DNA from: a virus
Length of the DNA stretch: 39,053 nucleotides
Virus record (IMG/VR): IMGVR_UViG_3300041955_000266
Span: 1 to 39,053 of that record
Strand: one strand, 5' to 3'
Made by a program: the position numbers and the translations under genes. Under the pieces are notes generated by a model. The model did no database searches, was not told the DNA's origin, and saw only the letters and a program-made list of their open reading frames with translations. Below, piece by piece: positions 7,833 to 25,351 of the stretch. Each line of letters starts with the position of its first letter. Position 1 is the first letter of the stretch.

Positions 7833-10258
7833 TAATCACGGCTGATGCTTCCGGCGTGGGGCCTGGCGTAGCCGAGGCGACCGCAGCCGTCAAGTCCTCC
7901 GCTGACCAGATCGCCACCGCCCAAGCGAAGGCCACTGCAGCTACAAGGCTGCTCACCCAGGCCCAGATCGAGCTCGGGGCTGCCGCTGAAGCCGGGAACA
8001 CTCAGGCTGCGGCGATCATCGCCGAATACGCCGCTGCCAACTCTGCAGCTCAGGCGTCGGTCGAGGCGCTCACCGCGGCCCAGGTCGAGGGCACAGCCGC
8101 CACGGTCGCGGACACAGCCGCTCAGGCCGCCGACACTGCGGCCACGTACAGCCACGCCGAGGCTATGGGCGCCGCCAAAATCAGCATGGGCGCCATGACT
8201 GGATCCACCCACATGATGGAGATGGGACTGGTAAAGCTGGCGTCCGGATCCTCTGTGCTCGGACCCCTGCTCGCGAGCATGGTTCCCGTGGCGATCTTCG
8301 CCGCCGGCACCTTCCTGCTCTATGAGCTCGGCGCCGCGATCTACAAGGCCTTTGACCTGGGCGGCGAAGCTGCGCGCGAGTTCGAGTTGAAGCTCTCAGG
8401 ACTGGACGCCTCTTATCGCAGTTTGATCGACGAGACCAGCCTCGAGGCTGACAAGATCGAGGCCGCCAACGCGAAGCTCGAGCACATGCCGAACCCCAAC
8501 GCCATGAAGGAGGCGATCGACCAGGCTATGGTCGAGGCCGACAAAATGAACAGCAAGGTGCAGGGGCTGATCGACAAAGAGGAGTCGCTTCTCAAGATGC
8601 AGACCCTCGCCGGCTCGACGCTGCAGCGGCTGACTGAAACGACCGGCACGCGCCAAGAGCAGATCGACCTCGAACAGCATGCCCTGTGGATGGAAAAGGC
8701 CATCTCGCTCGAGGCGCAGCTCGCCGAAACAAAGAGCTTCACGGCCGTCGAGGAGAAGAAGCTGCACGATCTCCGGGTCGAGCGCATGCTCAGCACGGAG
8801 CCGGATGAGCTCAACAATGAAATCACCGCAACGGAGCTCCTGGTCGCGAACACCAAGAAAGAGACTGCGGCCATCGAGGAGCAGATGCGGCTCCGTGACG
8901 CGCAGACCAAACATGAGGAGCTGACCGGCGAAGGAAAGGGTGCCAGGGCGAAATCCGACAATCTTCCCGAGCAGATCGCCAGGGCCCAGATTGAGGCCGC
9001 CCACGCCGCCGATGCCCAGCTGGCCCCGGAGCAGGAAATCATCGCGGCCATGGATAAGCAGATCGCGCTGAACAACCTCAAGGCCGAAACCACCAAGGAG
9101 GGCACCGAGGCCGAGCGCGAGCAGCTTCGTCTGATCGAGAACGGACTGGCGCTGGCGCAGGCCAGGGAGAAGATCGCGGCGCTTGGCACCGAGCGGCTGA
9201 CCGAAACCTTCAATGCCGAACAAAAGGAGCAGGCCGAAGCGCAGAAGCGCCAGGAGGATCAGGCCAAAAAGGCGCTCGAGGACTATAACCGGGTCCGGGA
9301 GATGCGGATCTCTGCCGCCCATGAAACGGCTCAAGCGACGATCGAGAGCGCGAACCTCGAATTTGAGCGCACCCAGCAGCAGATCCACAGCGAGGAGGAG
9401 CTCGGGATCGTCAGCCACAAAGTGGCCATGGAGAGGCTGCTCGACGCGCTGAAGCTGCGCGAAGCCACAACCCAGGGCGCCCTCAAGAAGGAGCAGTCCC
9501 TTTTCGATCCAGCTCTCGGCGAAAAGCAAGCGCTCGAATATCAGAAATTAGAGCAGCAGATGACCAGGGAGGCCGAGCGGGCCGCGGCCGAGCGGGAACG
9601 GATCGTCCAGCAGGAAGCCACGAAGATCGAGCAGATTTACAAACGGGTCGCGAATACCTTCAACACTGATTTCACGCGTGCCTTTAACGAGTGGGCGACC
9701 AAAAGCCAGACCGCCAGCCAGGCGTTTTCGCGGATGCTCGGTGACATGGAACTGCAGGTTGTCGACTTCGTGGCCAAATGGCTCCTGCAGAAGGCCGAAA
9801 TGTGGGCCATGAACGAGATCCTGGACGCTGGCGGCCTGGCGTCGTCGGTGGCGAAGAACATGATCGCAAATACGCAGAAGATCATTTCGGACGCCGCGGT
9901 GGGCGCTGCGGGCGCCGAGGCCGCGGCTGCACCGGCAGGCCCGGAAGCCATGGCAGCAGCTGGCGCTGTCGCGACGGTGATGATTATGTCGAACCTCTCG
10001 ACCGTCACGATGGACACCGGCGGCATGCTGCCTCACATGGCCATGGCTTTCAACACTTCCGGATCCGCCGAGCGCATTCTTTCGCCCTCGCAGACTTCGA
10101 ACTTTGAGAGCCTGGTGAACAACGGCGGCAGCCGGCGCGCGACGCTGAACCAGACAAATCATTTTGGGGAAGGAGTGACGCCTCGGATGCTCGAGGAGCA
10201 CACCAACAAGACGATGCGCGCCCTGCGCGGCATGCTCAAACCGGAGGCCTTTGCATGA
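7811..10258 (+). CDS. Tail tape-measure protein
   Basis: This 815-residue, mostly helical protein sets tail length and probably takes part in DNA entry. It begins with an Ala-rich coiled coil (about 15-110). Hydrophobic helices follow near 145-185 (LGPLLASMVPVAIFAAGTFLLYELG), then long charged coiled coils rich in Glu, Gln and Lys (about 190-640). A conserved-looking C-terminal part carries an Ala/Gly/Met-rich segment near 690-740. It is the longest helical protein of the tail module, lies right after G/GT, and ends in an ATGA overlap with the distal tail gene. All of this is typical of tape measures. Confidence 0.92.
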   Translation: MADELRVVITADASGVGPGVAEATAAVKSSADQIATAQAKATAATRLLTQAQIELGAAAEAGNTQAAAIIAEYAAANSAAQASVEALTAAQVEGTAATVADTAAQAADTAATYSHAEAMGAAKISMGAMTGSTHMMEMGLVKLASGSSVLGPLLASMVPVAIFAAGTFLLYELGAAIYKAFDLGGEAAREFELKLSGLDASYRSLIDETSLEADKIEAANAKLEHMPNPNAMKEAIDQAMVEADKMNSKVQGLIDKEESLLKMQTLAGSTLQRLTETTGTRQEQIDLEQHALWMEKAISLEAQLAETKSFTAVEEKKLHDLRVERMLSTEPDELNNEITATELLVANTKKETAAIEEQMRLRDAQTKHEELTGEGKGARAKSDNLPEQIARAQIEAAHAADAQLAPEQEIIAAMDKQIALNNLKAETTKEGTEAEREQLRLIENGLALAQAREKIAALGTERLTETFNAEQKEQAEAQKRQEDQAKKALEDYNRVREMRISAAHETAQATIESANLEFERTQQQIHSEEELGIVSHKVAMERLLDALKLREATTQGALKKEQSLFDPALGEKQALEYQKLEQQMTREAERAAAERERIVQQEATKIEQIYKRVANTFNTDFTRAFNEWATKSQTASQAFSRMLGDMELQVVDFVAKWLLQKAEMWAMNEILDAGGLASSVAKNMIANTQKIISDAAVGAAGAEAAAAPAGPEAMAAAGAVATVMIMSNLSTVTMDTGGMLPHMAMAFNTSGSAERILSPSQTSNFESLVNNGGSRRATLNQTNHFGEGVTPRMLEEHTNKTMRALRGMLKPEAFA

Positions 10259-11214
10259 GCCTTTCAGTCTTTCCAAGCCTGCCGGGGCTGACTTACACCA
10301 GCATGAAGACCCCAAAATTCAACACCCTGGTGCAGAGCGGCGCCAACGAATACGAGGTCCGGCTGCCGCAATACACGAATCCGGTCTGGACCTGGACGCT
10401 GATCTTCGACTTCCTGCATGACTTCTTTTGGGGTTCTTTTGAGACCGTGAGCGAGCTTCGGACGCTGATGGGCTTTGTCAATGACAACTATGGCAAGGCG
10501 TCCAGCTTCCTCTACACGGATCCCGACGACAATTCGGTTGGGCCCGCCCTTGTGGGCGGCCTGCCAAACGTGCCCCTGGCGCAGCTGGCGCTCGTTTCTG
10601 ACGGCGTGGGAAACTACTATTCCCCGGTCCAGCGGACGCTCGATGGCACCAGCTTCGAGGACATTACGGATCTGAACGGCGCGATCGCGGTCTACCTCGA
10701 CGGGACGCTGGCCGCGGCTGGATCCGGAGTAAACCAATACACGCTCGAGGGGCCCGGCCTGGCCATCCCCGGCCATTCCTGGATGGGGATGGTCCTCAAA
10801 TGGGGTCCAGGCGCGCCTGCCTGGGCAGCTGGCCATGCTTATCTAATGAACGACGTGATCCTTGACCCGGCGGGCCACATTCAGAAGGTGACGACAGCCG
10901 GCACCAGCGGATCCACAGCGCCGGTTTTCAATGACGCCGGCGGCAGCACGCCGGATGGCACTGGCACGCTCGTCTGGATCGATGAAAATTACTATTCAGG
11001 CCCGCCGGCGCCGGTCACAGCGCAGTTCAGGTTCTACTTTCGGGTTCGCTTCGAATCGGATTCTCAGGACTTCGAGAAGTTCCTGGGCGCCGGATCCTCG
11101 GCTGGCGCGCCGCCGGCTGGCCAAGGCGGCGGCTATTGGACGATCGGCGGCGAGAACTCCCAAAACGGCAGCGGGACCCTGGTCCTGCGCACAGCGAGGC
11201 CGGTCCCTCTGTGA
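10255..11214 (+). CDS. DUF2460-like distal tail protein with inserted domain
   Basis: The 319-residue protein starts with the pattern of the DUF2460/TIGR02217 family (VFPSLPGLTYTSMKTPKF, then ELRTLMGFVNDNYGKASSFLYTDPDD). Members are found in siphophages and gene transfer agents at the tip end of the tail tube. A C-terminal strand (YFRVRFESDSQDFEKF) also fits. Between about 195 and 245 it carries the same GHIQKVTTAGTSG module as the tail tube protein. The start overlaps the tape-measure stop, and the stop overlaps the next GTG. The DUF2163-like, NlpC/P60 and tail-tip genes follow in the order known for this tail type. Confidence 0.85.
   Translation: MSLSVFPSLPGLTYTSMKTPKFNTLVQSGANEYEVRLPQYTNPVWTWTLIFDFLHDFFWGSFETVSELRTLMGFVNDNYGKASSFLYTDPDDNSVGPALVGGLPNVPLAQLALVSDGVGNYYSPVQRTLDGTSFEDITDLNGAIAVYLDGTLAAAGSGVNQYTLEGPGLAIPGHSWMGMVLKWGPGAPAWAAGHAYLMNDVILDPAGHIQKVTTAGTSGSTAPVFNDAGGSTPDGTGTLVWIDENYYSGPPAPVTAQFRFYFRVRFESDSQDFEKFLGAGSSAGAPPAGQGGGYWTIGGENSQNGSGTLVLRTARPVPL
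10873..10910 (+). repeat. 38-bp direct repeat, copy 2 (in distal tail gene)
   Basis: Identical to 6661-6698. It lies in the inserted module of the distal tail protein and encodes the same residues as the copy in the tail tube gene. Confidence 0.9.
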
Positions 11215-12570: not shown

Positions 12571-13027
12571 GGCCGTCGCCGTCGCGCGCTCTTTCGTTGG
12601 CACGCCTTATGTTCTGGGTGGCCGACTGAAGGGTGCCGGCGTCGATTGCGCGACCCTGCTGGGCCTCTACCTGGTAGAGATCGGCGCCGCACCAGCGGAC
12701 CTGTTCTCGAGTGTCGGCGGCTACCGGCACGATTGGTTCCTCCATGACCCGACCGAGCGGTATCTGCGCGGCCTGGTGCGTTTCGGCTTCCTGGCAGCCC
12801 AGACCCTTTGCCGCTCCGACGCCGCAGCTCAGCCAGGCGACCTTGCCCTTTTCCGGGTCGTCAACAGCAAGGTCTTTAACCACGGCGCGATTGTGACGGA
12901 CTGGCCTCACGGGATCCACGCGGGCGCCGACGGCGTCCGGGAGATCTCGCTGACGACGCACCGGCTGACGGCATTCAAGCCCATGGAGGTTTTCGATCCG
13001 TTCATTAAGATGGAGCCTGGACCATGA
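12554..13027 (+). CDS. NlpC/P60 family tail-tip peptidase
   Basis: The 157-residue protein has the papain-like NlpC/P60 layout. Cys32 lies in GAGVDCATL, His110 in KVFNHGAIV, and His122 in IHA supplies the likely third residue. These enzymes cut peptidoglycan peptide bonds and in siphophages and gene transfer agents sit at the tail tip to help penetrate the cell wall. The gene lies between the hub protein and the large tail-tip protein, which fits. Its stop overlaps the next ATG by four bases. Confidence 0.9.
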   Translation: MKDRIEAVAVARSFVGTPYVLGGRLKGAGVDCATLLGLYLVEIGAAPADLFSSVGGYRHDWFLHDPTERYLRGLVRFGFLAAQTLCRSDAAAQPGDLALFRVVNSKVFNHGAIVTDWPHGIHAGADGVREISLTTHRLTAFKPMEVFDPFIKMEPGP

Positions 13028-16000
13028 CCACCAGCTTCAAAACCCAGGCGCAGCAGCGGCCCACAGCTATGGGATCGCTCCTGCAGGCGTCGGCCTATGG
13101 CGCCACGATCCCTGTCATCTATGGGCAGACGCAATCGAACCTTCTGGCCATCTGGGCGGCGAACCTGCGCCAGGGCGGCCTGGGCATCAAGAAGTTTAAG
13201 CAGTCGAAAAAAGGCATCACAAATTACTGCGAAAATATCGACTTTCTCCTGGGGCACAACCCGATCATGGGCGTGCTTCAGATCATGAACAACGGGTCGA
13301 ACACGCCTCTGGCCTTCACGAAGCAGACCTTCAGCGGCGCCGGCGGCCGGCAGTCCTTCAGCGTCACCGACCCGAATTTCTACTTTGTGATCGCTGTCAC
13401 GCTGACCGCCAGCTACAGCTTCAGCGTGAATGATTACGGCGGCCAGGGCCCGCAGACCCTCTCGGGGAGTTGGGAGATTCCGCTCTGGAATGAGCTCGAG
13501 CTCGGTCCCGATCCGACCAATCCGATGTCTTACCGCTGCTGGCCTTTCTGCTACCGCTGGCAGCCGGGCATGGGCGCCGCGGTTGCGATCGATGCCGAAA
13601 GCTTTCCCGCGGGCGAGGTCAATGTCTACTATGCCCAGCTCACCGCGGCAACCTCGCACCAGCCGCCGGCGACGAAGCTCTACATGGCCTTTGAGCCTCA
13701 ACTCGGGTCGGGTGACGAGTACGCGAACGCCGGCAATGATCCCACGGGTCACCCGTACACCGAACAGCAGATCGTCTACCCCCACTTTGCCGGCCTGCAG
13801 AGCTCTGAGCTCAACCTGGGCGCCTCGGGCGCGATCCCGCAGCTGAACCCTGAGATCCGGGGCAAGTGGGGAGTCTATTCGTCCGGCGATGCCGACTTTG
13901 TGGACATGATCGAGGATATCTACAAGAGCGGCGTCGCCCAGGCCGCGATCGCCGCTGAAACCTCGACCCAGCCTACGCCGGCCGGGACACAGATGGAGCG
14001 TGGCCTGTCGAGCTACGACCTGCCCGGAACGATCCAGAAGAAGGTCGACGCCAGCACGACGGCTGCCCTGCCACCGATGCAATACGACATGCCGAACACC
14101 GCCGAGAACGTGCTGGTGGCGGTGGCCGTGGGCAGCGGCATCCTGGGAATCGCGTCGACGAATGGCGAGGCCTGGACTAAGGTCTACGTCGACGCGCTCG
14201 GCTACCAGGTCTGGTACGCGAAAGCCGTGGGCGGCCCAAATACGGTGACCGTCTCAGGCGCCAGCGCACCCTGGCAGATGTCGGTGCTCGAGATCGGCGG
14301 TGTCGGCGGCCCGGTGCCGAACTCGGTAATGGTTTCGGCAACTGTCAATTCGCATGCGGCATCGGGCGGTGGCTCTGCGAGCTCGACGAACACAAGCGGC
14401 GCAATCAGCGGCGTCGGCGGCGGCCTGGAAGCTAATATGTCGTGGAGCGGCTTTGAGTGGCCCACCTTGCCTGCCGGCGCTGTGGTTACGGGAATTCAAC
14501 CTGTCATCACATATGAAGGCGATCAGAGCATTCCCACGCCGTCTAGCGCCCTCGCCTTTCAGCCTGGCGCTTATCCTGGCGCCACTGAATATCCGATCGG
14601 GCTCTTTCCCATCCCACCAGCAGGCGCCGGCTCAGTTTCGGGCACATGGATAGGCAGCAGCTTTGGCACCGACGAAGCCGCACTGACATCCTGCGTTATG
14701 GGTTTCTGGATGCAATGCACGGAATCTTTCGCCACTGGCGTTTCGGCGAGCCTTACCGTCACTTCCATAGGCTTATTGGTGAGCTACACCATTCCTGCAG
14801 GAGCCCTAGGCGGCGACACGGTTGACGCTGTGGCCACTTCCAGCCGCGGGCCTGTTAATGCTACCAGCACTGTGCCCCAGGGCCTCCCAGGCTATTTACT
14901 GGCGATTTCGCTCTATCCGAGCGGCGGGGCAGCGCCGGTGGGCGATCAGCCGCTCTGGCGGGCTGTTACGCCGGTAAACTTCGCCGGCGAGTCACCGACT
15001 GCCTTCCAGATGCAGGAGCGGATCATCCACTCGCCCGGCTCGTTCTCGGCGGCAGGCGCTGGGGGCACACCGGCCTCTATCTGCCTAGTGGCCCTGAAGG
15101 CGGCTGGCCCTGTGCCCTATCCGAAACCGCTTGGCGATTTTATCGACATTCCGTCTTTTGACCTCGTGCGCGCGCAATGCCGCGCAGCTGGCCTCTACGG
15201 CTCCCTGAGCATGAATTCGCAGTCGACGGCCTCAGATTGGATCAAGAAGCTCTGCCAGGCAGCCAACGCCGCCCCGGTGTTTCTGGGCTCGAAGTTCTAC
15301 CTGTACCCGTATTCCGAGGTCAGTAATGCCGGCAACGGGGCGTTCTACCAGGCCCCGACGGCGGCCGGGCCCGTGGCCGAGCTCGATGCCGCAAACGGCG
15401 ACTTTGTAGGGGCTGACGGCTGCCCGGATCTAATGACCGCGGACCGCGTCGACCTGCCGAACGTCCTGCAGATGCAGTGCTTCGATCGGAGCGCCAATTA
15501 CGTCCAGGTCACCGTCCAGACGCCCGATCCGGCCACGCTCGGCCTCTATGGCCAGCGCAAGGAGGATCCACAGAGCAATAACGCCATTCAGGACCCCACG
15601 ATCGCCCGAACCATCCTCGGGATCCAGGTGCGGCGGAATCAGTATGGCGGTGATCAGTGGAGCTTCAAGCTCACGGCGCGCTGGTCGCTGCTTTCGCCCA
15701 TGGACCTCGTCACACTGACCGACGAGCTGCAGGGGATCGTCGGCTTGCCGGTCCGGATCACCAGTTTCACCGAAAACGTCGAGGACGGCACGTTCTCAGG
15801 CACAGCCGAGCCTTTCGTTTACGGTATGTGCGCACCCAACCTGCTCGCCGCCACGAACCCCAGCCCGACGCCGGCCAATCCGCAGCAGAGTGCCGGAAAC
15901 GCGAATCCACCCGTCATTTTCGAGCCGACGCCGGGGCTCTACCCTGGCGCCTCGGGCGACCAGATCTGGATCGCGGTGTCGAGCAATAACCCGAACTTCG

Positions 16001-16728
16001 GCGGCGCCCAGGTGTTTGTCTCGACGGACGGCGGCGCGAGCTACAACCCAGCGCCAGGCGGCGCCGATGGGAATTCAAACATCGTCACCGGCTCGGCCGT
16101 CACGGGTGAGCTTATTGCCGACTGGCCGGCTGCCAACGATCCGGATTCGACCAACGACCTCGAGGTGGATCTCACCGAATCGAATGGCGTCCTCGAAAGC
16201 CAAAGCACGGTCGTCGAGAACAACTTCGAGACGCCCTGTTACGTCGAGGGCGCGGCCATTGTCATTCAGCAGGGCGGCGTCGCCGTCGCGGCCGGGGATC
16301 CAGCGGCCGTTGAAACTGGCGGCGGCCTGGTGGCCCTGCTCGGCACGCTCGAGGCTGGCGGGACGGCGGTCGCCGCGGCCGGCGGTGGTGGGTTCGGATA
16401 TGAGCTCATGACCTATGCCGTGGCCACGCTGACCGGGACGAACAAGTACACGCTCAAGGCCACCGGCGCCGGCAACTTCCTGCGCCGATCGATCTTTGAC
16501 GCGCCGAGTTCTAGCGGCGTCGGCATCGATCATCCGCTCGGCATGCGCTTCGCCGTGGTTGGTCCCAGCCAGGCCGGGATCCTCAAAATGACCATGCCGC
16601 CGGCGTATATCGGCCAGGCGCTCTACTTCAAGATCTGCACCTTCAACACCTTCGGAGCCGCTCTCCAGTCACTCGGCGATGTGTCACCATACATCTACGT
16701 GCCGACAGGCGTGCCGGGCGCCGCATAA
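13024..16728 (+). CDS. Tail-tip / J-like host-specificity protein with nested domains
   Basis: The 1234-residue protein occupies the position of the lambda gpJ-type central tip protein, right after the NlpC/P60 peptidase. The N-terminal about 340 residues include YGATIPVIYGQTQ, a common opening of phage tip proteins, and residues about 700-960 (DLVRAQCRAAGLYGSLSM and onward) continue the tip scaffold. Residues about 345-695 form an insertion: a Gly-rich beta domain that starts at NVLVAVAVGSG and ends at CLVALKAAG. It is itself interrupted at about 430-595 by another Ser/Gly-rich segment. A C-terminal region (about 970-1234) has FnIII/Ig-like strands and a Gly-rich run. It probably contacts the receptor and starts DNA ejection. 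Confidence 0.85.
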   Translation: MTTSFKTQAQQRPTAMGSLLQASAYGATIPVIYGQTQSNLLAIWAANLRQGGLGIKKFKQSKKGITNYCENIDFLLGHNPIMGVLQIMNNGSNTPLAFTKQTFSGAGGRQSFSVTDPNFYFVIAVTLTASYSFSVNDYGGQGPQTLSGSWEIPLWNELELGPDPTNPMSYRCWPFCYRWQPGMGAAVAIDAESFPAGEVNVYYAQLTAATSHQPPATKLYMAFEPQLGSGDEYANAGNDPTGHPYTEQQIVYPHFAGLQSSELNLGASGAIPQLNPEIRGKWGVYSSGDADFVDMIEDIYKSGVAQAAIAAETSTQPTPAGTQMERGLSSYDLPGTIQKKVDASTTAALPPMQYDMPNTAENVLVAVAVGSGILGIASTNGEAWTKVYVDALGYQVWYAKAVGGPNTVTVSGASAPWQMSVLEIGGVGGPVPNSVMVSATVNSHAASGGGSASSTNTSGAISGVGGGLEANMSWSGFEWPTLPAGAVVTGIQPVITYEGDQSIPTPSSALAFQPGAYPGATEYPIGLFPIPPAGAGSVSGTWIGSSFGTDEAALTSCVMGFWMQCTESFATGVSASLTVTSIGLLVSYTIPAGALGGDTVDAVATSSRGPVNATSTVPQGLPGYLLAISLYPSGGAAPVGDQPLWRAVTPVNFAGESPTAFQMQERIIHSPGSFSAAGAGGTPASICLVALKAAGPVPYPKPLGDFIDIPSFDLVRAQCRAAGLYGSLSMNSQSTASDWIKKLCQAANAAPVFLGSKFYLYPYSEVSNAGNGAFYQAPTAAGPVAELDAANGDFVGADGCPDLMTADRVDLPNVLQMQCFDRSANYVQVTVQTPDPATLGLYGQRKEDPQSNNAIQDPTIARTILGIQVRRNQYGGDQWSFKLTARWSLLSPMDLVTLTDELQGIVGLPVRITSFTENVEDGTFSGTAEPFVYGMCAPNLLAATNPSPTPANPQQSAGNANPPVIFEPTPGLYPGASGDQIWIAVSSNNPNFGGAQVFVSTDGGASYNPAPGGADGNSNIVTGSAVTGELIADWPAANDPDSTNDLEVDLTESNGVLESQSTVVENNFETPCYVEGAAIVIQQGGVAVAAGDPAAVETGGGLVALLGTLEAGGTAVAAAGGGGFGYELMTYAVATLTGTNKYTLKATGAGNFLRRSIFDAPSSSGVGIDHPLGMRFAVVGPSQAGILKMTMPPAYIGQALYFKICTFNTFGAALQSLGDVSPYIYVPTGVPGAA

Positions 16729-16737
16729 GGAGCAACC

Positions 16738-17214
16738 ATGGCTCTCGCAACGACGGTCAATCTCACGCCCACAGCTGCCGCACCGAGCGCTGTGCCGGCG
16801 CCCCCTACCGGCCAGCAGGCCGTCGTATTCGCCAACGACGGCGGGGCGCCAACGGTCAATTTCAGCGCCACCGATCCGGTGATGGAGGGCGATTCAGGGG
16901 CAGGCGGCCTGGCTGGCAACGTTCCTGCGCCTGCCGCGGGCACTGCAGCTGCTGGTAAATTTCTCAAAGCAGACGGCACCTGGGCGGTGCCCGCGGCCGG
17001 GACGTTCGTCGAAGAGCTGATCACCTTCACCGGGACAGCTGGGGCCTTTAGCCACGCGCCAGCGCGCCTCTTTGGTCTGTACCGTAACGGGATCAGGATG
17101 ACGTCGCTCGCCGGCTCGCCTGCCGTTCAGACCTTCAGCGCCATCGGCACGGCCATCACACTTTCAACTGCAGCAGGAGGAAGCGATGTTTTCATTGCGG
17201 TCTATCAGTATTAG
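16738..17214 (+). CDS. Short tail-fibre-like protein
   Basis: The 158-residue product is rich in Ala, Gly, Pro and Thr. It carries a GGLAGNVPAP...LKADGTWAVP region of a type common in phage fibre and side-tail proteins, followed by a C-terminal strand-rich domain (VEELITFTGTAGAFSHAP, with LYRNGIRM and FIAVYQY). ATG 16738 follows AAGGAG at good spacing. The last 29 bases overlap the start of the large exported fibre-like gene. Likely a trimeric fibre or a chaperone for the next protein; function is inferred from composition and position. Confidence 0.65.
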   Translation: MALATTVNLTPTAAAPSAVPAPPTGQQAVVFANDGGAPTVNFSATDPVMEGDSGAGGLAGNVPAPAAGTAAAGKFLKADGTWAVPAAGTFVEELITFTGTAGAFSHAPARLFGLYRNGIRMTSLAGSPAVQTFSAIGTAITLSTAAGGSDVFIAVYQY

Positions 17215-20200
17215 GGTTTTCGTTATGTTGGCCGCCCTTGCGGCGTGCCGGCCCGCGGTGGCGCAGATTAACCCCAATCAGATCAACTGGCCCACCGGAT
17301 CGACCGGCTGCGTCTACGCGCCGGCGACCAACACCTGTGTGATTCCGTCTGGGACGGGGACGGCCGTGAACCAGAACGGCGGTTCGACGATCGCGACGCT
17401 CCCATTCTCAGGCTTCATGCCCCAAGTCTGCGCTGATTCGAGCGGCAGCGGGGCCGCTCAGAGTTGCACGACAGCGAACAGCTTCACGCCCCAGGCGGCG
17501 AATTGCGTGGTGTATCAGACGACGACGGCGAATTCCGGCACCGGGCTGACTGTTAACGTGAATTCGCTCGGCGCAAAGAGCGTGGCTGTGGCCAGCGCGA
17601 CGGGCTGGACGACGACTCTGATCGCCGGACAAATCCCAGCGAATGAGCCCATTCATCTCTGCTACGACGGCGCGAATTGGGATGCTTCTGCCACCGGATT
17701 CGCCGCGAGCAGTTCTTCCACCGGCGCGGCTGGCGGCGATCTTTCTGGCAACTATCCCAATCCGCAGGTCGCAGGCTTTGGCGGGATCCCGTTCACGAAT
17801 ACGCCGGCTCCAGCTACTGACGATGTGATCTGCTACGACGGCGTCGAATACACGCCATGCCCGCCTGGGAGCGGCGCAGCCCAGATTCTGTACCTCACCA
17901 ACACAGCGTCAGATATCAGCGGCTACAACCTCTGGGACACCGGGCCTTTCGGCTCTCAATTCACCGTCACCAACACGATCCCCACCACCACCACCAAGAC
18001 CCTGATCAAGGCCTTCGCGACAGCGTCTGGTGAGCCGAACTCGACGGTGATTCCCGCGGGTGAGTGGCAGGCGGACACCTATGTCCAGGTCTCGAACGCG
18101 AACGGCACGACGACGCTGAATCTCGACGTTTACGACCGAACTTCTGGTGGCGTGGAGACCCTTCTTTTCTCCTTTGGGGCGCAGACGATTAGCGGCAACG
18201 GAACCGGCATTCAGGCGGTCTCGCTTGAGATCATCGAGCCGGCCTTCACCGTTGGCGCCACCGATCGCCTGGTGATCAAGTACTCCATGACCAAAACCGG
18301 CGGCTCCTCGATCACCGGGACAGTCTACGGGGGAGGATCGACTAACTATTCCCACGTCCACACGCCGCTCGGGTCCCCGGCCAGCGGCATCAATCAACTC
18401 ACAGGCGACGTAACGGCTGGGCCCGGATCCGGTTCGCAGGCGGCAACGCTGGCGACCGTCAATAGCTCCCCAGGAACCTGCGGTGACGCGACCCATGTCT
18501 GCCAGGTCACCGTGAATGCTAAGGGCTTGACCACAGCGCAGGGCCAGGTGACGATCACCGGCGGCAGCGGCCTGGCCGGCGTAAATGCGAAAACCACCAG
18601 CTATACAGCAGTTTCCGGCGATAACAACAAGGCGATTCCTTTTAACTGCGCGTCGGCCTGCACGCTGACCTTGCCCGCCAGCGTGCCGGCGGCGCCATGG
18701 ACCGTTTTCGTCTCGTGCGAAGGCCTCGCCGGCTGCTCGATCGTGCCCACTAGTGGGGCGAATCTCTACGCGGCGAACGGAGCCAATCTTGGAACCGGCT
18801 CGCTCAATACCGGCATGGGCGTCTCGATCTGGTCAGATGGTGTGAATTATCACGCCAATCAGGGCGGCATTCTGACGCCGGCCGCTGTGACGCCGCTGCT
18901 GGGTCAGAGCTTCGCTGAAAACGACTGCGGCAGCTCGCAAGGCGGAAGCGACTGCAACTGGATTACCCTGCCGAGCAACGTGACGCCGGGTGACGCCATC
19001 ATCGTGGAGACTTTTCATTCAAACGGAGGCACGATCGCCATCGCTGACAGCCAGGGCGACACCTTCACGCTAGAGAACTATCAAACGATCACGGGCAACT
19101 TCGATTTTTCGCAATATGTCGCCTGCAATGCTGTGGGCGGCGCGACGACCATCACCTTGGGATCGTCTGGGAGCTATCCAAACTTTAATTACGTTTCGGT
19201 TTACGAGGTCACAAACGTCGCGGTTTCGTCCTGCGTTGATGGCCATAGCTCGGCCCAGGCCAGTAATCCGTCGAGCCCTCTTTCCACGGGCTCGATCATG
19301 ACGACCCAGCCGAACGATTTCATTTTTGTCTCTGGCGCAGGGCGCACCGGCACCGGCGGGACGACGATCACAGAGGGCAATAGCTATTCGGTCCTTGAGA
19401 GCAGCGGGCTGGTCGATTCCGCCTTGACTTACAAAAGCTGGCAGGGAACGAGGGCCACGGCTGGAAGCCTCTCGGACAGCCTGAGCTTTACGAACAGCCC
19501 TGGTGGTGCGTATGCCGGGATCCTGGCGCTGAAGCCCACTACCAGCTCGGCGGCTTTGACCAGTGGCGATCTTATCGTCGTGGGTGCGCTGGGCGCGTTG
19601 CAGGCACTCCACCCTGGCACAGCTGGCTATGTGTTGACCTCGAACGGGCCGGGAGTGCCGCTGACCTACCATGCCCCTTACAACCCGAATTCGGGAATGA
19701 CAGCGGGCCAGGCTGCGATCGCCGGTGGAGCGAACACCATTACGAGCAGTAAGCCGCTGGCAGGATCGGGGGCTGGCCTTACGACTGGTCCGACGACGAC
19801 GACCAACAATGATTGTGCGAAATTCAGCGGAACTCTCGGTCAACTTGCCGATGCTGGTGCGCCCTGCGGAACGACGGTGGCAGCCGCACCGCCGTACCTT
19901 GAGATCGGCACACAATTCTACATTCCAAACGACGGGATGTATCTGGCTACACTGCCGATTGCCTTTTCGAGCGGTTGCACCTTCGGCAGCGCCTATAGCT
20001 GGCTCAATAGCGTAACTCCCTCCAGCTGCGCCAACGGGGCCAACGGCAACCAAATGCTGCAGACAACTTCGCAGTTCACAGCCTGGGCTTCAGCTTCCGC
20101 TTCGACTAGCGTTGAAGCGGTGCTGGCGGTGACCTCCACCGCTCTTTACAATGCGAACACTTCAACCGGAGGCATCTGGGTCTACGACGTAACGAACGGA

Positions 20201-20542
20201 AAGATCTACGCCCTGAACGCGACCGAGTATGGGAGCATCGCGACCAGTCAGATCATGATGCTGCAGGGCCAGATCTACACCTACAGCGGCAGCGGAAGCC
20301 CGTCTTTCAGCTCCACCATCAACACGTACGGATCGGCGTTCGGAGCGTGGGGCTTCGGGGCGGCAGTTCATTTTAAGCTGGTTGCGTCGGGAGGCACCTT
20401 AAACTTCGAATATTCGATCGATGGCGGGCAGACCTTCATTACGGCAATGAGCCACTCGGTGGGGACGGTTTCGAACGCGGGCTACTATATTGCCGGCCCG
20501 GGAACGACGACAGTGGACGTCCTGAGCGTGGTTGTGAATTGA
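17186..20542 (+). CDS. Large fibre-like protein with N-terminal export signal
   Basis: The 1118-residue protein begins with Arg5 and Arg10, then a hydrophobic stretch ending in LAAC (residues 18-21, a lipobox) and AVA before Gln27. It reads as either a lipoprotein signal or a type I signal peptide. AGCAGGAGGAAGCG precedes ATG 17186, a strong ribosome-binding site. The body is secreted-fibre-like: GDLSGNYPNPQVAG (about 184-197), several beta-rich segments, a Gly-rich domain with GGAYAGILALKP, and a C-terminal about 200-residue jelly-roll-like part (YLEIGTQFYIPNDGMYLA, with LNFEYSIDGGQTF) that could bind sugar. An export signal on a tail-module protein is odd because tails assemble in the cytoplasm. 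It may be a fibre built from a captured host secreted gene, or a protein displayed on the infected cell. Confidence 0.75.
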   Translation: MFSLRSISIRVFVMLAALAACRPAVAQINPNQINWPTGSTGCVYAPATNTCVIPSGTGTAVNQNGGSTIATLPFSGFMPQVCADSSGSGAAQSCTTANSFTPQAANCVVYQTTTANSGTGLTVNVNSLGAKSVAVASATGWTTTLIAGQIPANEPIHLCYDGANWDASATGFAASSSSTGAAGGDLSGNYPNPQVAGFGGIPFTNTPAPATDDVICYDGVEYTPCPPGSGAAQILYLTNTASDISGYNLWDTGPFGSQFTVTNTIPTTTTKTLIKAFATASGEPNSTVIPAGEWQADTYVQVSNANGTTTLNLDVYDRTSGGVETLLFSFGAQTISGNGTGIQAVSLEIIEPAFTVGATDRLVIKYSMTKTGGSSITGTVYGGGSTNYSHVHTPLGSPASGINQLTGDVTAGPGSGSQAATLATVNSSPGTCGDATHVCQVTVNAKGLTTAQGQVTITGGSGLAGVNAKTTSYTAVSGDNNKAIPFNCASACTLTLPASVPAAPWTVFVSCEGLAGCSIVPTSGANLYAANGANLGTGSLNTGMGVSIWSDGVNYHANQGGILTPAAVTPLLGQSFAENDCGSSQGGSDCNWITLPSNVTPGDAIIVETFHSNGGTIAIADSQGDTFTLENYQTITGNFDFSQYVACNAVGGATTITLGSSGSYPNFNYVSVYEVTNVAVSSCVDGHSSAQASNPSSPLSTGSIMTTQPNDFIFVSGAGRTGTGGTTITEGNSYSVLESSGLVDSALTYKSWQGTRATAGSLSDSLSFTNSPGGAYAGILALKPTTSSAALTSGDLIVVGALGALQALHPGTAGYVLTSNGPGVPLTYHAPYNPNSGMTAGQAAIAGGANTITSSKPLAGSGAGLTTGPTTTTNNDCAKFSGTLGQLADAGAPCGTTVAAAPPYLEIGTQFYIPNDGMYLATLPIAFSSGCTFGSAYSWLNSVTPSSCANGANGNQMLQTTSQFTAWASASASTSVEAVLAVTSTALYNANTSTGGIWVYDVTNGKIYALNATEYGSIATSQIMMLQGQIYTYSGSGSPSFSSTINTYGSAFGAWGFGAAVHFKLVASGGTLNFEYSIDGGQTFITAMSHSVGTVSNAGYYIAGPGTTTVDVLSVVVN

Positions 20543-20616
20543 TGAACTATCGGCTGATCTGGTTTGCGGGTGGCGTCCTGGTCGGCCTGAACGTGGCCAG
20601 CCTGGTGATGAACTGA
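20542..20616 (+). CDS. 24-residue membrane peptide
   Basis: ATG 20542 overlaps the previous stop (TGATG) and the frame ends at 20616, overlapping the next ATG in the same way. The peptide is nearly all hydrophobic after MNYR. The next protein also begins MNYR, from almost the same bases, so this may be a truncated copy of that signal peptide rather than an independent gene. Confidence 0.4.
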   Translation: MNYRLIWFAGGVLVGLNVASLVMN

Positions 20617-20984
20617 TGAACTACCGCTTTTCTATCATGCTTCTTGGCCTGGCCTGCCCTTTCGGCTTCGCGCAAAGCGCGTTGCCGAAGGCGACGGCTT
20701 GGGATGTGAACCTGACCTGCACGGCGCCGGCGAGCTCGCCTGATCCGGTGGCCGGGTATCTGTTCTTCCGCGCGCCCAGTGGATCGACGAGCTACGCGCA
20801 GCTGAACGCAACGGCTACAACTGGCTGCGGCTATACTGACACTGGCGCGACTCCCGGAGGGACCTGGAACTATATCGCCGAAAGCGTCGACGCCCAGGGC
20901 GTCGCCAGCGCGCCCAGCAATATGGCGGCGGCAACCATCCCGGCAGTTCTCACGGCCGGCACTTTAGCCGGAAAGACAACCTGA
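20616..20984 (+). CDS. Exported FnIII-like small protein
   Basis: The 122-residue protein starts with a signal peptide (MNYRFSIMLLGLACPFGFA, probable cleavage before Gln20). The mature part has the spacing of a fibronectin type III-like domain: VNLTCTAPASSPDPVAGYLFFRA, then YTDTGATPGGTWNYIAESVDAQGVASAPS. Two Cys residues in the mature part suggest a disulfide outside the cytoplasm. It ends in TAGTLAGKTT, resembling the end of the following protein (LAAGTLSGATS). It shares the operon with the large exported fibre-like gene and probably has a related job at the cell surface. Confidence 0.7.
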   Translation: MNYRFSIMLLGLACPFGFAQSALPKATAWDVNLTCTAPASSPDPVAGYLFFRAPSGSTSYAQLNATATTGCGYTDTGATPGGTWNYIAESVDAQGVASAPSNMAAATIPAVLTAGTLAGKTT

Positions 20985-20997
20985 TGAGGAGAATTTT

Positions 20998-21381
20998 ATG
21001 CGTAACCTGGTTCTAGTTTTGGCAATGTTCTTTCTGAGCATCTCGGCGGTTCCAGCGCAGGCTCTGAGTGGTTTGCCGGCGGCGACCGGGGCGGCCACCG
21101 TGCTGACCGTGAGCTGTCCCTCGCCGGCAACGGGAAGCCAGATATGGCGCGCTACCGGCACGAGCTCAACCGTGACGCTGACCAGCACCAACTGGGCACA
21201 GTTGGGGACCATCTCGACCGCCAGCGGCAGCTACACCGACTCGACGGGCGCGATCGGGACCAGCTACGGCTACACGGCCATCTGCACCCAAGGAACGAAT
21301 CTGGCGCCTCCAACAGCCATCTACTTTGGGACGCCCACAAGCCCTTTAGCTGCAGGAACACTTTCTGGTGCAACCTCGTAA
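20998..21381 (+). CDS. Exported FnIII-like small protein, related to the previous gene
   Basis: The 127-residue protein has a clear signal peptide (MRNLVLVLAMFFLSISAVPA, cleavage near Gln21) and GAGGAG at good spacing before ATG 20998. The mature domain (VLTVSCPSPATGSQIWRAT, then YTDSTGAIGTSYGYTAICT) follows the same FnIII-like pattern as the product of 20616-20984, with two Cys residues at similar places. The pair looks like a duplication that has diverged. Its stop codon lies within the hairpin at 21355-21404. Confidence 0.7.
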   Translation: MRNLVLVLAMFFLSISAVPAQALSGLPAATGAATVLTVSCPSPATGSQIWRATGTSSTVTLTSTNWAQLGTISTASGSYTDSTGAIGTSYGYTAICTQGTNLAPPTAIYFGTPTSPLAAGTLSGATS

Positions 21382-22180: not shown

Positions 22181-22381
22181 TTAGGAAAGGCGCCGGTATC
22201 TCTTTCCGTGGCGCCGCCGGCTGCTGATGCCAGCGGCGCGCAGGACGCGCGAGACCGTGTTGCGGTGCAGCCCGAGCCGCGCGGCCGCGGCCTGCTGATT
22301 CCAGTGGGCCGCCTTGACTGCGGCGAGTATCCAGTCCAGCCGAGCGCGCCGCATGACGGCCCAGGAAGCGCTCGCGCTCAC
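22181..22381 (-). CDS. Small Fis-like helix-turn-helix protein
   Basis: The 66-residue protein holds one clear helix-turn-helix at residues 27-51 (WNQQAAAARLGLHRNTVSRVLRAAGI). This closely follows the Fis-type C-terminal pattern (GN..AAA..LG..R.TL...L...G). A basic tail (SSRRRHGKRYRRLS) follows. GTG 22381 overlaps the methyltransferase stop (GTGA) and has GGAGG seven bases upstream. It is probably a DNA-binding regulator or architectural protein acting on phage promoters. Confidence 0.75.
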   Translation of the reverse strand: MSASASWAVMRRARLDWILAAVKAAHWNQQAAAARLGLHRNTVSRVLRAAGISSRRRHGKRYRRLS

Positions 22382-23460
22382 GCTATAACCTCCATCACGG
22401 TCTCGATAAACGCCTGGGCCGCTGGCGCACAGAGAGCATCGCCGTAGCCGCGCAGTCGTCCCACGCGCGCGGCAACCCCTGAAGCCAGCGGGAATGTGCC
22501 GGGTTCAACTGGCCGCCAGCGTCCATCGCGGCATCCGATCCAGTCAGCATCTCGCCAGAAGCCGTTAAGCGGGCTGGGCCGCAGAGTCTTTCCTGGCTCT
22601 TGAGCGTGTCCGGCACTCCCCGGTGCGCCCCGGTACACTCCGAGTCCTCCTTGCGCGGCGTCGCCCAACTCGCCAACTGTGCCACTCCCGCCATCAACGG
22701 CTCCCCGATTCGGTCCCTGCTCCGGCTGGTCTGGCCGGCCTGCATCGCGTTCGGGGTGGGCCACGAACTCAAGGTCACTTCGACGCTCAAATCCTTTCCT
22801 CGTGGATGTGCAAATTGCTTCTCCAAAACTTCCGGCGTGCAACTCGCGCTCTTGAAATCCCGCGTCTTTGGAGATGCCCAGGCCGCTTGCAACACATCGC
22901 GCGTCAAGCTCTGAAACTGGCCACTCGCCCGTGTCGCATTGTTCGGGTCGTCTGACGTTGGCGTGGGCCACGAAGTAAAGCCTCTGCCGGATGTGCGGCG
23001 CGCCGACACTGCACGCTCCAAGTACCGCCGCCCCAACGGCGTAGTCCGCTCCTTCCAGGTCAGATTGAACAAGGTCGAGCCAGCCGTGTCCAATCGCCGC
23101 ACTAACCTGCTCGCCAAAGAGCACTGCAGGGCGAAGCTCGCGGATGAGTTGAAACCAATGAGGCCAGAGGTGACGAGGGTCTCTAAACCCCTGGCCTTTT
23201 CCCGCTGTTGAGAAGCTGGGGCAGGGGCAGCTTCCGGTCCAGACGGGCCTGTCGTCAGGCCAGCCAGCGCACCGGAGTGCGTAGGACCAGGCTCCGATCC
23301 CGGCGAAGAAGTGGCATTGGGCGTATTCCAAAAGCTCTGCTGGCTTGACATCGGCAATGCTCCTCTCGTCCACGTCTCCCGGCGCGATCAGGCCTGCGCG
23401 TATAAGTTCGCGCAGCCACTCGGCCTTGACCGGGTCGATCTCGTTGTACCAAGCGCTCAT
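22378..23460 (-). CDS. C5 cytosine DNA methyltransferase (Dcm-like)
   Basis: The 360-residue protein carries the ordered motifs of C5-methyltransferases. Motif I is FFAGIG (51-56). Motif IV is CPCPSFS with catalytic Cys80. Motif VI is GEQV (116-119, in place of ENV), and motif VIII is RQRLYF (158-163). A C-terminal block ([37 protein letters not shown]) holds motifs IX and X. It should methylate cytosine in phage or host DNA, most likely to evade restriction. The middle (about 165-290) is low in conserved motifs and lies in the target-recognition position. It starts by an ATGA overlap with the upstream Cys-rich gene. A second long frame overlaps it on the same strand. Confidence 0.9.
22395..23357 (-). 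other. Long open frame overlapping the methyltransferase (+1 frame)
   Basis: A 320-codon open frame runs inside the methyltransferase gene on the same strand. It contains repeated SWPTP/SWATP segments and ends with [15 protein letters not shown], then [13 protein letters not shown] recall similar WPTP...LNPAHSRWL proteins annotated from many phages beside C5-methyltransferases. They may be shadows of the MTase frame (VAHAN is read as WPTPT one base over) or a true dual-coded product. The MTase motifs show the other frame is functional, so I keep this as a doubtful feature. Confidence 0.3.
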
Positions 23461-24809: not shown

Positions 24810-25331
24810 TCACTTCCTAGCTGCGGCTTTTTGGGTTCCTGCGGGCAGCAGTTCCACTTTCCCGTAGCAAACCGTGCCTTCAACACGCTGAGCTCTAATA
24901 GTGGTCTCCTCTAGTTTTGGGACCCGCCGGAGGCAAAGACCAGCGAAAATCCGCAGCTTTGTGCTGATGATTGTCTTCGCGAGTATTTGGAGGCCAGCTT
25001 TGATCCCCCAGCCAGCTTTGATCCCGTCGCCAGCTTCGATCCCGTCGCCAGCTTCGATCCCCCAGCCAGCTTCGATCCCGTCGCCAGCTTCGATCCCCCC
25101 GCCAGCTTCGATCCCGTCGCCAGCTTCGATCCGCCAGCCAGCTTTGATCCCCGAGCCAGCGCCAGCAAAAATTGACATGGAGCCAATTAGGGACCCGCGA
25201 AACTTCACGCAACCGAGCGCAGGCGCAATCTCAACCTGGCCCGCAAATTCAATCGAATGCGACGCTGCATAATATCCTTGAGCGTCCAATTGCTCTTTTG
25301 TGATCAGTAGCTTTTCCATAGCGATCTCCAT
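24810..25331 (-). CDS. Hexapeptide-repeat protein (probable beta-helix)
   Basis: The 173-residue protein contains about ten tandem copies of a six-residue unit G-I-(E/K)-A-G-(D/W/G) near residues 60-118. The units are encoded by nine near-identical 18-bp DNA repeats and flanked by related degenerate units. Regular Ile every six residues is typical of left-handed beta-helices (compare bactofilins and hexapeptide-repeat proteins). An N-terminal part (LLITKEQLDAQGYYAA) and a C-terminal part (KLRIFAGLCLRRVP, then a GTVCYGKVEL strand) cap the array. Similar GIxAG-repeat proteins occur in other phages, function unknown to me. GGAGG precedes ATG 25331; ATG 25319 is possible. Confidence 0.7.
   Translation of the reverse strand: MEIAMEKLLITKEQLDAQGYYAASHSIEFAGQVEIAPALGCVKFRGSLIGSMSIFAGAGSGIKAGWRIEAGDGIEAGGGIEAGDGIEAGWGIEAGDGIEAGDGIKAGWGIKAGLQILAKTIISTKLRIFAGLCLRRVPKLEETTIRAQRVEGTVCYGKVELLPAGTQKAAARK
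24993..25154 (-). repeat. Nine 18-bp tandem repeats
   Basis: Nine contiguous 18-base units (plus-strand form GCCAGCTTCGATCCCGTC) differ mainly in the last three bases, which alternate GTC and CCA (Asp and Trp codons on the coding strand), and in C/T at one site. They code for the GIEAG array. The number of units may vary between relatives by slippage or recombination. Confidence 0.9.
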
Positions 25332-25351
25332 TCCCACGCCTCCGTGAGCGG

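Follow-up and report, generated by a model that had tools for sequence, protein, structure and literature searches.

In textbook tailed phages, the fibres fold and assemble in the cytoplasm. The tailspike of Serratia phage MTx (MK618717) shares with the proteins analyzed here fibre modules, gene position and an N-terminal domain of the form TVTVY..GT...NPF, but, as an ordinary fibre, it begins at its methionine without a signal peptide, whereas in signal-peptide-bearing fibres a signal peptide and a cysteine-containing segment are placed before the N-terminal domain, and cysteines are more numerous. The Tunturiibacter phages Tunturi 1-5 are isolates infecting Acidobacteriota, and runs of signal-peptide-bearing fibre genes occur in Tunturi 2, 4 and 5; however, their description (PMC11924767) reports neither signal peptides nor proteomics, and the fibres of Tunturi 3 are without signal peptides. 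In lambda, a gene with a signal peptide, lom, immediately follows the tail-tip gene J, but the annotation of Lom is that of an outer host membrane protein, in contrast to the products described here (A, B and C), which are a fibre and FN3 proteins. The lipoproteins Llp of T5 and Cor of T1 are likewise small, exported and phage-encoded, and some relatives of C are also lipoproteins; B and C differ in being FN3 proteins encoded in the late tail region. Exported multi-domain proteins of Acidobacteriaceae (L082-L115) carry C-terminal FN3 domains with up to 63% identity to B, but there the domain ends a large protein, whereas the phage B stands alone with its own signal peptide. No report of signal-peptide-bearing tail fibres was found in open-licence PMC papers.

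The window, by which we mean the whole 39,053-bp IMG/VR contig, is from a tailed soil phage, with terminase, portal and tail tip genes found. Behind the tail-tip gene lie, in this order, a fibre-like gene without a signal peptide, gene A, a 24-codon mini-ORF, gene B and gene C (Table 1). The original prediction that three consecutive genes with export signals stand at the end of the tail module was borne out, in that all three open reading frames were found in place and each has a Sec signal peptide. It had also proposed that each of them starts at a ribosome-binding site or a tight overlap, which is correct for A and C, both with good ribosome-binding sites (the AGGAGG of A lies five bases 5' of the ATG), but B is without a Shine-Dalgarno sequence and is coupled through the mini-ORF. 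The first residues of the mini-ORF, MNYR, are those of B, as if the start had been duplicated.

Table 1. Features of the tail end of the window; a slash marks a predicted cut.
Feature	Coordinates	Strand	Remarks
Tail tip/hub protein (Phage-tail_3)	13024..16728	+	Pfam 4e-11, PHROG 1101 tail 3e-17; last of the tail module proper
Short fibre-like protein of 158 aa, lacking signal peptide and Cys	16738..17214	+	overlaps the start of A
Shine-Dalgarno AGGAGG of A	17175..17180	+	read in the sequence; within the 3' end of the upstream fibre gene without signal peptide
Gene A, fibre-type protein of 1118 aa, starting with a Sec signal peptide	17186..20542	+	22 Cys in the mature part
Signal peptide of A (MFSLRSISIRVFVMLAALAACRPAVA)	17186..17263	+	score 8.0; predicted cut AVA/QIN
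Fibre repeat module of A (QLTGDVTAGPGSGSQAATLATVNSSPGTCGDATHVCQVTVNAKG) with Cys pair	18380..18559	+	module also in 80 viral loci, in fibres with and without signal peptide
C-terminal all-beta domain of A	19856..20539	+	common to signal-peptide-bearing fibres of L002; more distant copy in L117
24-codon hydrophobic mini-ORF (MNYRLIWFAGGVLVGLNVASLVMN)	20542..20616	+	TGATG-coupled to A and to B
Gene B, 122 aa, one FN3 domain behind a Sec signal peptide	20616..20984	+	relatives in viral and Acidobacteriaceae genomes
Signal peptide of B	20616..20672	+	predicted cut GFA/QSA; score 5.9
Shine-Dalgarno AGGAG of C	20987..20991	+	read in the sequence
Gene C, FN3-fold protein of 127 aa, starting with a Sec signal peptide	20998..21381	+	predicted fold; signal peptide score 7.9
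Signal peptide of C	20998..21057	+	cut VPA/QAL, or AQA/LSG per scorer

Signal peptides were predicted with a home-made scorer, which was checked on OmpA, MalE, Lpp, PhoA and LamB, which detects Lom in lambda, and for which the line for a positive call is 5.5. In agreement with the original prediction, A, B and C all scored above this line (Table 1), and each has a positive n-region, a hydrophobic h-region and an AxA-type site. Of 8589 internal start codons, only 9 (0.1%) scored 6 or more, and the ordinary fibre and tail genes of lambda, T7, Mu, Mx8, MTx and Tunturi 3 were all negative, the highest score being 5.44 for one lambda ORF. Four of the 41 called genes in the window were positive, and the run of three gave a permutation p of 0.013. 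When the window was compared with the related locus L003, C was found to be identical at 7 of 20 residues of the signal peptide versus 86 of 107 of the mature part, and B at 4 of 19 versus 65 of 103; for C, non-synonymous changes affected 13 of the 20 signal-peptide codons and 21 of the 107 mature codons. The predicted feature is thus kept while its sequence drifts, which is the pattern of signal peptides and not of docking peptides. True starts downstream of the hydrophobic stretches are disfavoured, because the ribosome-binding sites of A and C sit at the called starts and because relatives keep the signal-peptide features despite their divergence.

The N-terminus of A reads MFSLRSISIRVFVMLAALAACRPAVA/QINPNQ, in which both a LAAC lipobox and an AVA site had been noted. 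L019, the closest N-terminal relative of A, is identical at 15 of 25 residues of the signal peptide and at 22 of the 33 behind it, the conservation reaching about 35 residues past the signal peptide, and the start of A and its upstream context are also preserved there. The lipobox cysteine is not conserved (LAAC is LAAT in L019), while the AVA site, a signal-peptidase-I site followed by glutamine, is kept as AxA/Q. Therefore, the reading of A as a true lipoprotein was rejected, and A is probably a signal-peptidase-I substrate. The fibre modules of A are common to known fibres or fibres without signal peptides, and A occupies the fibre slot; it matched no Pfam family, nor any PHROGs entry at the thresholds used. 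In tblastn its C-terminal domain was 45% identical to L002 and 34% to L117. The AF2 model of this domain had a pLDDT of 43, and the resulting Foldseek list (coronavirus spike NTDs, lectins) was discarded as meaningless, so that the fold could not be named; a lectin profile match (E 6e-4 over 37 residues) was likewise too weak for such an identity to be accepted.

Runs of signal-peptide-bearing fibre genes were found in isolates infecting Acidobacteriota and in many soil viral contigs, with up to seven signal-peptide genes within the fibre region of a single genome. Tunturi 5 has six consecutive ones, Tunturi 2 has four clear ones and a weaker fifth at 13356 (5.6 in one scoring, with the best form just below 5.5 in another), and Tunturi 4 has three, one of which is masked by a late annotated start. 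This last gene is ORF111 of Tunturi_4, annotated as 'tail fiber protein' (PP885687, 80076-83171; L064:8076-11171), whose annotated start is at 80433; with a TTG start further upstream, the protein gains 119 residues, among them a signal peptide closely like that of ORF113. The annotated fibre genes of Tunturi_3 (PP885686), a phage of the same host genus, are without signal peptides, and thus export of fibres is not universal or obligatory in this host group. Among genes encoding at least 300 aa in twelve genomes, signal peptides were predicted for 25 of 30 in fibre clusters versus 10 of 308 elsewhere, a descriptive comparison in which the cluster borders were set after the data had been seen and 'elsewhere' includes two genomes with no defined cluster. 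The idea of an undescribed three-gene system was too narrow: the A-B-C order recurs, for instance in G008, but what is general is a class of soil-phage fibre genes with signal peptides.

The fibre-module scan, which is less biased than the cluster comparison, returned 78 viral ORFs, 23 with and 55 without a signal peptide, and a clear gap separated the two groups. On the module tree, the signal-peptide label switches about eight times, at least three of them on well-supported forks, so modules move between fibres with and without signal peptides. In addition, Tunturi 2 gp12 and its relatives have an N-terminal domain with the pattern G.C..G...P.CTVTVY.TGT...NPF, and in a scan for this domain the signal peptide directly preceded it in 39 of 41 viral contigs, although the profile was built from members with signal peptides and cousins without them may be missed; this set and that of the 80 module loci include near-duplicate contigs. 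A cousin without a signal peptide is the N-terminus of the MTx tailspike, from residue 15 onward, in which the second cysteine is an alanine; the signal peptide is thus added before what elsewhere begins a tailspike. Among 396 Acidobacteriota genomes, the N-terminal domain gave one weak match, so prophages provide no clue to the host. In Pfam and PHROGs, the signal-peptide-bearing fibres of the Tunturi phages showed GDSL, pectin-lyase, chitobiase-C and Ig-like domains and no fibre family.

The fibres with signal peptides are also rich in cysteine. The median content over the whole ORF was 1.32% in those sharing the module of A, versus 0.19% in fibres that share the module and have no signal peptide, and within each of the 10 genomes tested the signal-peptide-bearing fibres exceeded the other large genes (p=0.002). 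Paired cysteines inside the module were found in 11 of 20 sequences with and in 0 of 49 without a signal peptide, a contrast whose Fisher value overstates independence, as the pair has just one or two origins on the tree. This richness fits export and disulphide folding in an oxidising compartment. Furthermore, glutamine is at position +1 in 37% of the signal-peptide genes in fibre clusters, in 16% of other phage signal-peptide hits, and in 21% of the hits in a Granulicella secretome (400 kb of genome) versus 3.9% glutamine overall. On the contig of Granulicella sp. L60 (L124-L143), predicted signal-peptidase-I substrates are enriched for glutamine at +1 (20% versus 3.9% overall), a tendency like the Q-rule. 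The Q-rule, in which signal peptidase I also exposes glutamine, was described for Bacteroidetes in a text without mention of Acidobacteria (PMC5837995), and the enrichment is weaker here.

The N-terminus of B reads MNYRFSIMLLGLACPFGFA/QSALPK, and in the eight phage B proteins that were read, glutamine is at or beside the predicted mature start in all. The suggestion that B and C are FnIII-like was confirmed for B by profile matches to FN3 (3mpc, E=3.6e-7; titin, E=1.1e-8) and is supported for C by its predicted fold (AF2, pLDDT 71), whose 50 highest-ranking PDB matches were mostly FN3 domains (best E=4e-3, TM about 0.5). Pfam gave a sub-threshold family only for B, and PHROGs a weak match to a central-tail-fibre-J profile; C matched no family in either. 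The viral scan with B alone as the query gave no match, and a two-row alignment as the query succeeded. Almost all cellular relatives of B are from Acidobacteriota; they are domains at the C-terminus of large proteins, and several of these proteins have signal-peptide or lipoprotein N-termini. The FN3 domains that end the large exported proteins of Acidobacteriaceae mentioned above are among the nearest. In the tree of the B domain, phage and host copies are intermixed, with at least two changes forced. These relatives and this mixing make Acidobacteriaceae the likely host of the phage. The N-terminus of C reads MRNLVLVLAMFFLSISAVPA/QAL. In 8 of the 8 contigs read (the window, G002, G005, G006, G007, G008, G009 and G010), a B gene and a C-type partner fill the slot, and in G008 the whole order of fibre, B and C recurs. 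A lipobox is found in some C-type relatives (LTAGC in G001, ITSGC in G005 and LVGC in G010); B and C of the window are without one.

We consider it likely, from these sequence comparisons, that A, B and C come from an Acidobacteriota phage and are exported, and that A represents a recurring class of proteins of the fibre or tailspike type with host-type Sec signal peptides. Export is well supported as a prediction by several independent lines of evidence: the conservation of the signal peptides despite divergence, the glutamine at +1, which resembles that of the host secretome, and the cysteine enrichment; all three proteins thus probably leave the cytoplasm. From the signal peptides and their conservation, the glutamine, the cysteines, the fibre modules and the synteny, we infer translocation, cleavage and disulphide formation: the proteins would be made late, with the tail genes, would cross the membrane through SecYEG, would be cut by signal peptidase I to expose an N-terminal glutamine, and would form disulphide bonds as they fold in the periplasm. 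B and C, as single FN3 domains, would be exported by the same route as A, with the envelope or the released fibre as the pair's probable site of action. We tentatively suggest that the mature fibre joins released virions at lysis or acts beside them, as a glycan-binding or glycan-cutting appendage, and would then be a part of the adsorption apparatus assembled outside the cytoplasm. Periplasmic maturation and action with virions are favoured because the signal peptide precedes N-terminal domains of the tailspike type and because the exchange of modules with ordinary fibres continues. A still more tentative generalization is that the adsorption apparatus of some tailed phages is partly assembled outside the cytoplasm: the fibres would be exported by the host Sec system, cut by its signal peptidase, undergo oxidation in the periplasm and attach to virions in the course of lysis or afterwards. 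The fibre-like protein without a signal peptide just upstream of A could be the real virion fibre, which is a point against the reading favoured here.

The main rival, which suits B and C best, is that these proteins, and perhaps A, remain in or on the envelope of the infected cell and keep progeny from re-adsorbing to infected cells or debris by masking or jamming the receptor, much as Llp of T5 or Cor of T1 act (superinfection exclusion). Several C-type relatives look like lipoproteins (G001, G005 and G010), B resembles domains of host surface proteins, and Llp of T5, a small periplasmic lipoprotein with a disulphide, blocks FhuA (PMC9586334). However, such a role is a poor fit for large fibres that contain GDSL or pectin-lyase enzymatic domains, and the genes are positioned in the late tail operon, whereas expression of Llp is early. 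We regard receptor masking as rather unlikely to explain the locus; B and C may have such a role, given that lipoproteins are found among their relatives. Next to be considered is that the proteins are free adhesins or exopolysaccharide-degrading enzymes, shared goods released before or at lysis and never bound to the virion. Such a role would account for the pectin-lyase, GDSL-esterase and chitobiase-like domains among the signal-peptide-bearing fibres and for the presence of up to seven of these genes in one fibre region, but it is unlikely, given that the N-terminal domain, virion-proximal in an ordinary tailspike, is retained behind the signal peptide and that a large protein must still cross the outer membrane before lysis.

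The mixing of phage and host copies in the B-domain tree could also indicate that a host secreted-protein cassette was captured as a moron with no tie to phage structure, in the manner of lambda lom, which directly follows J and also scores positive for a signal peptide. That A is made up of phage fibre modules, and that no homologue of C was found in 300 genomes of the host family (in a search run without a positive control), make this improbable for the whole set. The original prediction of host secreted material captured by the phage is partly supported for B, with its identity to host FN3 domains and its mixed tree, and is unsupported for A. Finally, the hydrophobic N-termini might be virion-docking or trimerisation helices and not working signal peptides, with assembly in the cytoplasm as usual. 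The conserved N-terminal segment followed by swapped bodies, as seen between A and L019, is also typical of virion-docking regions; nevertheless, the charge of the n-region, the AxA site, the glutamine at +1, the faster divergence of the signal peptide than of the mature part and the enrichment of cysteine all favour export, and we consider docking helices very improbable.

If the fibres are indeed exported and act with virions, some phages would use the export and disulphide machinery of the host for the proteins that decide host range. Alternatively, proteins annotated as fibres would actually be secreted surface proteins. Both outcomes alter the annotation of fibre genes in soil phages and the picking of receptor-binding proteins from metagenomes, and the pattern can be hidden by the choice of start codon, as in Tunturi 4.

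Several other observations were made in and around the locus. The B and C families (window 20951-21381) have a common C-terminal motif, ..L.AGTLSGaTS-COOH, for which a diversity-generating retroelement was considered and dropped; no reverse transcriptase was met with in untargeted searches. In L007 (287-775), an unrelated phage protein carries the final 25 residues of C as an in-frame fusion, which points to recombination at the 3' end of B and C; similar loci, L008 and L009, were found in the same scan. Elsewhere in the window, a tail-region protein at 10255-11214 (+) matches a glycoside-hydrolase PHROG (7e-21), a DNA methyltransferase gene (PHROG 363, 5e-78) at 22378-23460 (-) adjoins the tail and export genes on the opposite strand, and an ORF at 24810-25337 (-) contains short repeats (AGDGIEAGGGIEAG...).
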